DNA from: an uncultured Monoglobus sp.
GTDB taxonomy: Bacteria; Bacillota; Clostridia; Monoglobales; Monoglobaceae
DNA length: 64,000 bases
Direction of reading: 5' to 3'
Assembly: GCA_947628795.1 (NCBI GenBank)
Contig: CANRBF010000006.1
Span: 1 to 64,000, forward strand
This document shows positions 17,791 through 26,938 of this stretch, one piece after another. Each line of letters opens with the position of its first letter. Position 1 is the stretch's first letter. The position numbers and the translations under genes are program-made. The notes under the pieces are model-generated. The model saw nothing but the letters and a program-made list of their open reading frames with translations, had not been told where the DNA came from and did no database searches.

Positions 17791-17990
17791 ATAAAATAAT
17801 TCCCTGCGTTGTGCGTAATTATGACACTAATGTAAAACCAACAAAATTATTAAGGGATTTTAATCTTCGGGGGCGGCGCACATGCCTCACACCCTTCGGG
17901 GTCGTCCAGTGGACTTGTAAAGTTTCCGAGAAAATCCCACCTGGTTTCCAGGTTTTTACCTTAGTCATTCTACGGCAATCGCGGGGTTTA
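17791..17990 (+). ncRNA. ssrS: Probable 6S RNA
   Basis: This gap of about 550 bases holds no protein gene but a roughly 200-nt RNA behind a good promoter. The ends pair: CCCTGCG (17802-17808) with CGCGGGG (17980-17986), then TTG with CAA, CGTA with TACG and CTAA with TTAG. A large central bubble follows. Its 3' side carries the small hairpin CCTGG-TTT-CCAGG. Above it GGGATTTT pairs with AAAATCCC and a long terminal stem-loop follows. Closing stem, open bubble with a 3' hairpin and apical stem are the hallmark of 6S RNA, which mimics an open promoter and binds RNA polymerase. Identification is by structure, not by database match. Confidence 0.75.
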
Positions 17991-18049
17991 TTTATGTCGG
18001 CAAATAATTTGTTAAAATCGCTGTATTTTTACAAATTTATTTAAAACCC

Positions 18050-24224: not shown

Positions 24225-24965
24225 TTAGCTCCATGCGTAGTGGTCAACAGAGATCTCAGCGTCGTTCTTCATGAAGTTGTCATAGAAAGGAATCGTGTTC
24301 GTGTTCGTTCCGTCTAAGATGGGATCGTCCCAAGTTACATCAACGTGGTACGCAGCTCCGTTAACTTCGATAACGTTCCAGCTGTGATTCATAGCTTCGC
24401 TCTCTACAACTGTGCAGGGAATACCAACCGCGTTCATAACATGCTGATAAGCGGAAGAATACGCCTGGCATACGCCCGTCTTGTTCACGATCGCGTCATA
24501 AGCGGTTCTTGCCGTGTAGGACAGATCGTAAGAGCAGTTCTCGATAAAGTAATTGTGGATAATTTTTGCTTTTTCTTCTGCCGCCATTGAACCGTCAACG
24601 AGGGCTGTGATCTTCGCAACCTCTGCGTCGAAAGCCGCAAGCTTCGCGTTGATGGCTTCGGGGCTGTCAACATAAGTGATCGTCAGCTTCGTAGCCTTGT
24701 TTGTCGTCTTTGAATAAGCGCAATCAACAGTCTTGGAAACGAAGAAGTTTCTCGGCGTCTTGTTCAAATAAGCCAGGAACGCGGTCATAGCGTCGTTGGC
24801 TGTAACATTGAACTCGCTAACGTCTACCGTTGTTGCATAGTTGGCGATAGCGGTCTCAAAAGCCGCGTCAAGCGCCGTGTTTTCCTCGGCAGCATAAGCA
24901 GATACGCTGCAAACAGCAACAACCGCGATCAACAGAACAAAAATGCTCTTCAAAGTCTTTGTCAT
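24225..24965 (-). CDS. Secreted transglutaminase-like protein under GEMM control
   Basis: A 246-residue exported protein. The signal peptide MTKTLKSIFVLLIAVVAVCS ends near AYAAEE. The C-terminal transglutaminase-like domain (about 120-240) holds the catalytic Cys in GVCQAYSSAYQHV, His in NHSWNVIEV and Asp in HVDVTWDDP, so the triad is complete. Such proteins may cross-link, cleave or transfer at the cell surface; the substrate is unknown. The start at 24965 follows GGAGG by six bases. It is monocistronic, with a leader of about 640 nt carrying three GEMM-I aptamers, which ties it to a cyclic dinucleotide signal. Codon choice is plainer (many TCT, GTC, AAG) than in neighbours, perhaps reflecting high expression. 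Confidence 0.88.
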   Translation of the reverse strand: MTKTLKSIFVLLIAVVAVCSVSAYAAEENTALDAAFETAIANYATTVDVSEFNVTANDAMTAFLAYLNKTPRNFFVSKTVDCAYSKTTNKATKLTITYVDSPEAINAKLAAFDAEVAKITALVDGSMAAEEKAKIIHNYFIENCSYDLSYTARTAYDAIVNKTGVCQAYSSAYQHVMNAVGIPCTVVESEAMNHSWNVIEVNGAAYHVDVTWDDPILDGTNTNTIPFYDNFMKNDAEISVDHYAWS

Positions 24966-25046
24966 GATAATCCTCCAATCTTTCACAAACCATTGCCGGG
25001 TGGCAATGACACTTATCACCTTGCGGTGACTCGACTTAATAATTAA
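24966..25046 (-). promoter_or_regulatory. Leader segment between the third aptamer and the transglutaminase-like gene
   Basis: On the minus strand this holds three hairpins: ACTTAAT/ATTAAGT, TCACC-GCAA-GGTGA and CATTGCC-ACCC-GGCAATG. The GGAGG ribosome site follows. No U-tract is present, so if this is the expression platform it should act on translation, RNA stability or Rho access and not by intrinsic termination. Confidence 0.5.
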
Positions 25047-25127
25047 GTAGGTGGCCGGGCTGTCATAGCAAGCAAGCTTGCTTTAGACCCCATAGCTTTG
25101 CGTCCCCGGCTTTCGCCGAGTTTGCCG
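25047..25127 (-). promoter_or_regulatory. GEMM-I riboswitch aptamer 3 (gene-proximal)
   Basis: On the minus strand: GGCAAAC, a GNRA-capped stem CGGC-GAAA-GCCG, the invariant GGGACGCAAAGC, the receptor-like GCTATGGGGTCTAAAG, then ATGACAGCCCGGCC. These match the conserved parts of the c-di-GMP-I (GEMM) family. The base before GCAAAC is G, as in c-di-GMP binders. Confidence 0.88.
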
Positions 25128-25225
25128 TTTGTTCAAGTTTTTATGGATTAAAACGATCAAACTTTCCTGTGGTATACCGCGATAAATCGCAGAGCGCGAA
25201 ACGCGCCCACTGCTTGTATACCAAA

Positions 25226-25321
25226 GCAGGCGGCCGGGCTGTCATGACCGAAACGCGCGCGTCCGCGCGAAACTGTTTTAGACCCCATAGCTTTGCGTCC
25301 CCGGCTTTCGCCGGGTTTGCT
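25226..25321 (-). promoter_or_regulatory. GEMM-I riboswitch aptamer 2 (middle)
   Basis: The same conserved core as the proximal copy: GCAAACCCGGC, GAAA, GGGACGCAAAGC, GTCTAAA and ATGACAGCC. The variable arm GCGCG pairs with CGCGC. The base before GCAAAC is A (TTGAGCAAAC). Confidence 0.88.
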
Positions 25322-25406
25322 CAATTATTAAATTGTAGTTCGATATGTCTTGTGATTCGGGTCCGCGGCAAGCCGCTTATCCTTCGTCTCTGCCGGCATA
25401 TCAGAA

Positions 25407-25501
25407 GCAGGCGGCCGGGCTGTCATTGTCAGCCGCGCGCGTCCGCGCGTCTCACTTTAGACCCCATAGCTTTGCGTCCCCGGCTTTCGCCGGGTTTGCT
25501 A
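25407..25501 (-). promoter_or_regulatory. GEMM-I riboswitch aptamer 1 (gene-distal)
   Basis: The same core as the middle copy, with the variable arm GACGCGC/GCGCGC. The base before GCAAAC is A (TGTAGCAAAC). The three cores start 179 and 181 bases apart. The promoter is about 110 bases upstream. Confidence 0.88.
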
Positions 25502-25612
25502 CAATCGTTCATTGACGTTTAATGTTTTAAACATAAAAGTCTTAAACGCGGAAAATGTGAACTTTGAAAAACACATCTCCCGGCTGAAGTGAAAATCCAC
25601 TTCCGCATTGTC

Positions 25613-26344: not shown

Positions 26345-26373
26345 TTTACTTATGTTGCGGTCTGTGATATAAT
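26345..26373 (+). promoter_or_regulatory. Promoter of the AbrB-type gene and its leader RNA
   Basis: TTTACT (26345-26350) and TATAAT (26368-26373) with a 17-base spacer. Transcription would start near 26380, inside the first arm of the long hairpin. The AT-rich stretch 26171-26344 upstream shows no gene. Confidence 0.75.
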
Positions 26374-26376
26374 AAG

Positions 26377-26491
26377 AATCGCCAAATTAGTAATATAATT
26401 TTTTACTTGCGCAGTATGTTTTTTTGTTTCGGCAAAAATGCATGCTCTGCTTCACATACTGTGCGGTAAAAATAATACTAATTTGGCGATT
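26377..26491 (+). ncRNA. Long-hairpin structured RNA leader of unknown class
   Basis: A 16-bp perfect outer stem joins AATCGCCAAATTAGTA (26377-26392) to TACTAATTTGGCGATT (26476-26491). Inside, TTTTTAC pairs with GTAAAAA and GCGCAGTATGT pairs with ACATACTGTGC (11 pairs, one G-U). The apex holds TTTTTTG/CAAAAA and GCATGC. It lies directly after a promoter and before a terminator and the AbrB-type gene. It matches no riboswitch class I recognise. A miniature inverted-repeat element is an alternative, but no target-site duplication is seen. Confidence 0.6.
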
Positions 26492-26540
26492 AGGAGCATT
26501 GCGTTTTTGGGCGCGGCGCTATGCTTCGCGCCTTTTTATT
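26492..26540 (+). terminator. Intrinsic terminator in the leader of the AbrB-type gene
   Basis: GGCGCG (26510-26515) pairs with CGCGCC (26527-26532), followed by TTTTTATTTT. An alternative outer pairing of AGCAT (26495-26499) with ATGCT (26521-26525) would break the terminator stem. It ends 25 bases before the start codon, so it can act as an attenuator. Confidence 0.7.
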
Positions 26541-26566
26541 TTACTTAAATTTACGGAGGTATTATT

Positions 26567-26806
26567 ATGATCGTCAAAATTGATTCTATAGGAAGGATAA
26601 CCATTCCCAAAAAATATAGGGAAGAATTTAACTTAAAGCCTGATTCCGAGGCTAATATGCTGCCGCTGCCCGACGGGATCGGAGTATCGCTGTTCAGACT
26701 GACGCCCAGATGCGCCAACTGCGGAGAAGAGAAGGGACTTGAAAAATTTGATAATATATCGCTGTGTGATAATTGCAAAAAGATTTTGAAGTATGCGATA
26801 ATGTAG
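26567..26806 (+). CDS. AbrB/SpoVT-type regulator with C-terminal zinc ribbon
   Basis: A 79-residue protein. The N-terminal swapped-hairpin AbrB domain (residues 1-46) begins MIVKIDSIGRITIPKKYREE. The C-terminal half has two Cys pairs, CANC and CDNC (about residues 51-54 and 68-71), likely a zinc ribbon. Such proteins are small transition-state or sporulation regulators in Clostridia. The start follows CGGAGGT by seven bases. Expression appears to be gated by the structured leader and terminator upstream, possibly autoregulated. A role as an antitoxin-like MazE is less likely because no toxin gene follows. Confidence 0.88.
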   Translation: MIVKIDSIGRITIPKKYREEFNLKPDSEANMLPLPDGIGVSLFRLTPRCANCGEEKGLEKFDNISLCDNCKKILKYAIM

Positions 26807-26938
26807 GGACTAGGAAATAGGAACTAGTAACTAGGCGGGCGGCCGAGGTCGTCCGCCTGCCTCGCCCCATACCGTAGGGCCGGATGCCCACATCCGGCCG
26901 GCGGCTTGCAGGCAAGCCGCCCTACGGCACTAAACTTT
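26804..26938. repeat. Heptad repeat plus cruciform-type element
   Basis: GGGACTAGGAAATAGGAAC and further TAG-ending heptads (26810-26838) follow the AbrB-type gene directly. Two hairpins then stand within CCGTAGGG...CCCTACGG (26872-26927): GGCCGGATG/CATCCGGCC and GGCGGCTTGC/GCAAGCCGCC. The second part lies just after thiE and may end its transcript, though no U-tract is present. Confidence 0.7.

Follow-up and report, generated by a model that had tools for sequence, protein, structure and literature searches.

A multi-copy leader RNA family of Clostridia that is likely to act as a transcription attenuator

Introduction

Leaders in which an antiterminator competes with a terminator, such as those carrying c-di-GMP-I riboswitches (RF01051), place these mutually exclusive structures in the 5′ leader, occur in tandem copies and have surface-protein targets. 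All of these characteristics are shared by the RNA element described here. Among published proposals, the SLH motif comes closest: this orphan riboswitch candidate, reported with 80 examples, occurs in Clostridia and Negativicutes among others and lies upstream of S-layer-homology genes or genes of unknown function (PMC6429828). A further point of reference is provided by plasmid attenuators of the pT181/pIP501 type, which are replication leaders that work with a trans antisense RNA.

The element lies in a 64,000-nucleotide stretch of DNA from an uncultured Monoglobus sp. (the window), where it precedes a gene for an AbrB-zinc-ribbon protein. An earlier note had interpreted it as a regulated leader belonging to no recognized riboswitch class, and this reading is supported both by the absence of an Rfam match and by the covariation of mutually exclusive antiterminator and terminator pairings. 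We propose that the leader probably belongs to a multi-copy family of cis-acting RNAs whose members attenuate transcription by means of three alternative strands. No experiments were performed, and there are no data on a ligand, a factor, the transcript or termination.

Leader anatomy

The features of the leader are listed in Table 1. The earlier note had described a consensus-like promoter that starts transcription inside a perfect 16-bp stem, two further long stems enclosed by it, and a terminator with a U-rich tract. Each of these claims held on reading the sequence, and the transcription start is predicted near position 26380, within P1, in the absence of transcript data. The distance from the terminator to the start codon had been put at about 25 bases and is 29 nt. 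An AGCAT/ATGCT alternative that would break the terminator also held and is part of the longer pairing between strands D and T′. Two things had been missed: a stronger alternative in which U pairs with D, and the lack of specificity for AbrB genes.

Table 1 Features of the leader and of the gene that follows it, in window coordinates
Feature	Positions	Strand	Description and basis
Promoter	26345–26373	+	−35 TTTACT (26345–26350), 17-nt spacer, extended −10 TGa-TATAAT (26368–26373); direct sequence reading; part of recurrent cassette
P1 5′ strand, basal stem	26377–26392	+	Perfect 16-bp stem with P1 3′ strand; sequence reading, fold, covariation
P1 3′ strand	26476–26491	+	Sequence reading, fold, covariation
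P2 5′ strand, upper rod	26409–26419	+	Pairs with P2 3′ strand; fold; sequence varies freely among copies
P2 3′ strand	26454–26464	+	Fold
P3, small apical hairpin	26421–26438	+	Stem 26421–26426/26433–26438; fold; 5′ arm resembles D; holds A-rich half of U
Strand U (AAAAATGCATGCTCT)	26434–26448	+	Near rod tip; partner is P3 5′ arm or, alternatively, D
Strand D (GGAGCATTGCGTTTTT)	26493–26508	+	Just 3′ of rod base; partner is U (putative OFF) or T′ (putative ON)
Intrinsic terminator	26510–26537	+	Stem GGCGCG 26510–26515/CGCGCC 26527–26532, U-run 26533–26537
T′, terminator loop and arm	26517–26527	+	Antiterminator partner of D; pairs with 26493–26503 at 10 of 11 positions in this copy
RBS GGAGG and spacer	26550–26566	+	Sequence reading
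AbrB/MazE-type DNA-binding domain and 4-Cys zinc ribbon, 79 aa	26567–26806	+	ATG at 26567; Pfam matches under cut-off

The fold of the leader has a z-score of −5.4, and none of 200 shuffled sequences is equally stable. Under simple folding, the lowest-energy state of the window copy is the terminator and not the antiterminator.

Conserved pairings and covariation

The anatomy and covariation of the element were assessed using an alignment (A5) of 106 copies. Over 105 copies, the spacer is 17 nt in 97 and the TG of the extended −10 is present in 95, and 6 nt separate the −10 from the basal stem in 85. Because this last spacing is nearly fixed, the RNA is expected to begin at the base of P1. The linkers are near-constant as well, with 7 nt between P1 and D and 10–11 nt between U and P2. 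The rod totals roughly 31 bp, and its middle is free to vary: copies within the window's own genome are 32–37% identical there, with 37% in the 5′ strand of P2. Conservation is found in strand U near the rod tip (consensus AAAAAUGCAUGCUCU) and in strand D (consensus GGAGCUAUGCRUUUUU), which lies 3′ of P1. Pairing by U, P3 and D accounts for most of the conserved unpaired bases, and no classical aptamer core is obvious.

A covariation check on homologous leaders, suggested in the earlier note, reveals covariation at P1, U:D, D:T′ and the terminator across the 106 copies, wherein D pairs with either U or T′. P1 is paired in 1,223 of 1,237 cells (98.9%), and each of its 12 modelled pairs shows both-side changes; the terminator stem is paired in 99.5% of cells, again with both-side changes at every pair (six of six). 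The corresponding values are 93.2% and eight pairs for U:D, and 88.1% and seven pairs for D:T′. Covariation scores exceed those of all 500 shuffles and of every slid control. Taken alone, the counts of covarying pairs and the pair types for D:T′ do not beat the shuffles (63/500 and 119/500), and the shuffle controls leave some relatedness among copies.

Also consistent with pairing within each copy is the fact that duplex energies are stronger in cis than in trans for both U:D (z = −11.7) and D:T′ (z = −12.5), whereas the control combination U:T′ has no cis preference (z = −0.6). The same preference is observed among the 14 copies tested from the window's own genome (U:D, −4.6; D:T′, −5.0; U:T′, −0.7) and likewise in 41 copies from outside the family Monoglobaceae. 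Furthermore, G-U pairs far outnumber A-C mismatches (170 to 32 in U:D and 249 to 37 in D:T′), which indicates selection for RNA pairing rather than for a DNA operator. Mean energies are −16.5 kcal/mol for U:D, −16.2 kcal/mol for D:T′ and −14.6 kcal/mol for the terminator, and such near-equality among three alternatives is what would be expected of a poised switch. The existence of the family, its pairings at P1, U:D, D:T′ and the terminator, its fixed promoter and linkers, and its gene context are shown by comparative sequence analysis. Covariation, together with recurrence in many genomes, places the observation far beyond chance.

Distribution of the element

A covariance model built from 14 AbrB leaders (R1) detects the element in 33 of 38 Monoglobaceae genomes, mostly away from AbrB genes. 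With a second model built from 69 copies (R2), we find 18 copies in the window's own Monoglobus genome (E up to 1e-3), five of them at AbrB-zinc-ribbon paralogues, and up to 35 copies in a single genome, that of a relative. In a sample of the class Clostridia, R2 identifies copies in 66 of 245 genomes and 44 genera, with a best E value of 5.6e-21 outside the family. Only 11 candidates were scored per genome in this sample, so these counts are minimum values. A less sensitive survey of 398 genomes from the phylum (seven candidates scored per genome), which doubles as a specificity control, matches only the window's own genome and none of the 397 others. Model searches found no copy in a complete genome of the same genus (G005).

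Tandem pairs and one triple are present, and each tandem copy examined carries its own promoter. The element was also encountered by BLAST in phages on an unverified 6.5-kb 'Bacteriophage sp.' fragment (L264, MT837627.1), and two IMG/VR contigs (L262 and L263) carry it at one of their ends. Carriage by phages is possible and remains unproven. BLAST of plasmids returned no match to the element.

Genes that follow the element

An open reading frame with an RBS begins within 60 nt of 58 of the 106 copies, at 61–150 nt in 11 and farther away in 19, and 18 copies have no open reading frame within 400 nt. Some copies without a nearby reading frame may have decayed or might act as small RNAs. Directly after five gene-less copies (L166, L170, L173, L176 and L205) there are short stretches that resemble P1 and D sequences from AbrB-type leaders, which are possibly remnants of rearranged leaders.

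The downstream genes largely encode secreted or surface proteins, and most of the remainder comprises recurrent small unknown proteins and AbrB-zinc-ribbon genes. Pfam domains include the copper-amine-oxidase N-terminal (stalk) domain, BspA leucine-rich repeats, CHAP, M23 peptidase, RCC1, transglutaminase and ricin-type lectin; the signal peptides present on most of these proteins were judged by eye. Two families of small proteins are found behind the element, one rich in Cys (GKDCPGNG...CCCDEC; L243, L244, L247, L250 and L169) and another that starts with MNIKVELLKNYISDFI (L224, L230, L233 and L234). Both recur behind the element across different families, and one representative of each (L243 and L224) has no Pfam match. 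At another locus (L158), the element precedes a gene for a secreted transglutaminase-domain protein. Separately, the window carries three tandem c-di-GMP-I riboswitches (25047–25510, − strand) ahead of a secreted transglutaminase-like gene (24225–25019, − strand).

The gene in the window was named partly by reading its protein sequence, because its matches to the Pfam models MazE_antitoxin, MraZ and DZR_2 fall below cut-offs. Its own genome contains three close paralogues (81–94% identical) and one distant one (38%), and all five genes share one leader plan with completely different stem sequences. The pattern recurs at roughly 40 such AbrB-type genes in relatives; those identified from the named collection are MAGs of Monoglobus and Clostridia that bear the label Lapin. 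The description of the element as an AbrB leader nevertheless had to be amended: most copies sit before other genes, and thus the element is not AbrB-specific. The 3′ flank of the window's AbrB gene (26806–26936) contains CTAG-rich and palindromic GGGCGGC-type sequence, and similar stretches follow other copies (for example, L005, L170 and L173); these are possible dispersed repeats.

Proposed mechanism

The leader meets the structural expectations for an attenuator in that a terminator precedes the RBS and open reading frame, D:T′ excludes this terminator, and U:D competes as an anti-antiterminator. That switching among these states controls read-through, the direction of this control and the existence of one signal common to all copies that sets the choice are inferred. 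If this model is correct, transcription would start at the foot of the basal stem, and the rod would fold first with U near its tip. U would be partly held in P3, with its 3′ half free to serve as a toehold. Capture of D by U through strand displacement of P3 would keep D from reaching T′, allowing the terminator to form and leaving the gene OFF. If instead U is kept in P3 or is bound by a factor, D would pair with T′, break the terminator and turn the gene ON. U:D may arise as a long-range pseudoknot with the rod intact, which appears feasible since the two near-constant linkers could together span the rod, although this is only a geometric estimate.

The common signal could be a small molecule, a protein or an RNA. 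The AbrB protein is unlikely to provide the signal by binding its own leader, given that most copies precede other genes. CsrA was considered as a partner and rejected: it is encoded by none of the 66 carriers, versus 83 of the 245 sampled genomes, a comparison that shared ancestry could confound. The complete lack of overlap between element carriers and CsrA carriers in these class genomes perhaps arises because the carrier lineages are non-flagellate.

Alternative explanations

The alternative closest to our proposal, and a special case of it, is a riboswitch proper, in which the rod and the U:D pseudoknot together bind a small molecule in a pocket; this ligand, which might be a signalling nucleotide, would control surface proteins. 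Such a reading is possible, and there are no binding data. It would fit the many copies, including tandem pairs and a triple, the resemblance of the secreted-protein targets to the transglutaminase-type gene behind the window's c-di-GMP-I riboswitches, and the presence of a bulged base, conserved A/U-rich loops and constant linkers. However, strongly conserved unpaired bases are few, tandem copies each carry a separate promoter, which is not usual for tandem riboswitches, and no Rfam riboswitch matches. The copies might instead be trans-acting small RNAs, in that U, exposed at the rod tip of a terminated leader, would pair with an mRNA or with the D strand of another copy, so that the copies regulate one another. 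Gene-less copies exist, the expected 5′ end is paired in P1, and U and D strands taken from different copies still pair with a mean of −13 kcal/mol. We consider this unlikely because pairing in cis clearly beats pairing in trans, including among the 14 copies tested from one genome, and because the majority of copies lie directly before a gene with an RBS.

Two further readings are both very unlikely. AbrB-type proteins bind DNA, and U, D and T′ could be repeated operator sites for the AbrB-type protein itself; U and D are indeed inverted repeats, and the element is present at all close AbrB paralogues. Against this stand the excess of G-U over A-C, the maintenance of P1 by compensatory change, the location of most copies before non-AbrB genes and the lack of a cis preference for U:T′. 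The other reading is a mobile, MITE-like inverted-repeat element whose structure is a by-product of transposition. It draws on the numerous dispersed and tandem copies and on those found on the unverified phage record and at IMG/VR contig ends. The earlier note had held that occurrence at unrelated sites with target-site duplications would refute a regulatory leader, and copies do occur at unrelated sites. However, the low identity of the mid-rod among copies from one genome fails the near-identity expected of such elements, promoter and linkers are fixed, and copies are mostly oriented towards genes. Together with compensatory pairing, this makes recent mobile copying unlikely, in the absence of data on target-site duplications.

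Comparison with known systems

An Rfam check of the kind suggested in the earlier note (Rfam 15, gathering threshold) assigns no family to the element in the window or at the approximately 60 loci scanned, and scans at relaxed thresholds yield no consistent weak family. The RF01051 aptamer is not found at the element, and its only matches in the window are the tandem riboswitches on the other strand. The literature searched contains no description of the element; its presence as a candidate within the list of Fremin and Bhatt 2021 (PMC8040213) is not excluded, as the supplements were outside the search. The attenuator reading concerns a large RNA switch family of many gut Clostridia that is apparently undescribed. 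With copies in about a quarter of the sampled Clostridia genomes, as many as 35 in one of them, and no Rfam entry, it would rank among the more abundant regulatory RNAs that are still uncharacterized in gut bacteria. Such a family suggests that secreted and surface proteins form a regulon governed by one shared, unidentified signal.

A bolder interpretation is that the element represents a class of riboswitch or RNA signalling that is new and widespread among gut Clostridia, in which one common signal acts on cassette-like copies, numbering up to dozens in a genome, to set the expression of surface and secreted proteins. The evidence falls a little short of favouring this view. The defined pairings open the mechanism to direct testing, and with the models and alignment it is possible to look for cultured carriers and to screen for a ligand or factor.

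Compared with c-di-GMP-I and similar riboswitch or attenuator leaders, the element differs in that it lacks an Rfam match, that almost all copies carry their own promoter at a constant spacing from the basal stem, and that base conservation is concentrated in U and D with no evident aptamer core. The SLH motif has a similar kind of target, and its identity with the element is neither shown nor excluded, its sequence being available only in a figure. The same genome also encodes 6S RNA (RF00013), another long rod RNA of similar size, which is located separately (17798–17991, + strand, 80 bits); the element has no 6S match. The element probably acts like an attenuator, and riboswitch status cannot be claimed without a ligand. 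In contrast to the pT181/pIP501 type, it is chromosomal and multi-copy, and no antisense partner is known. As in that type, pairing between an upstream strand and the antiterminator strand would decide whether transcription terminates.
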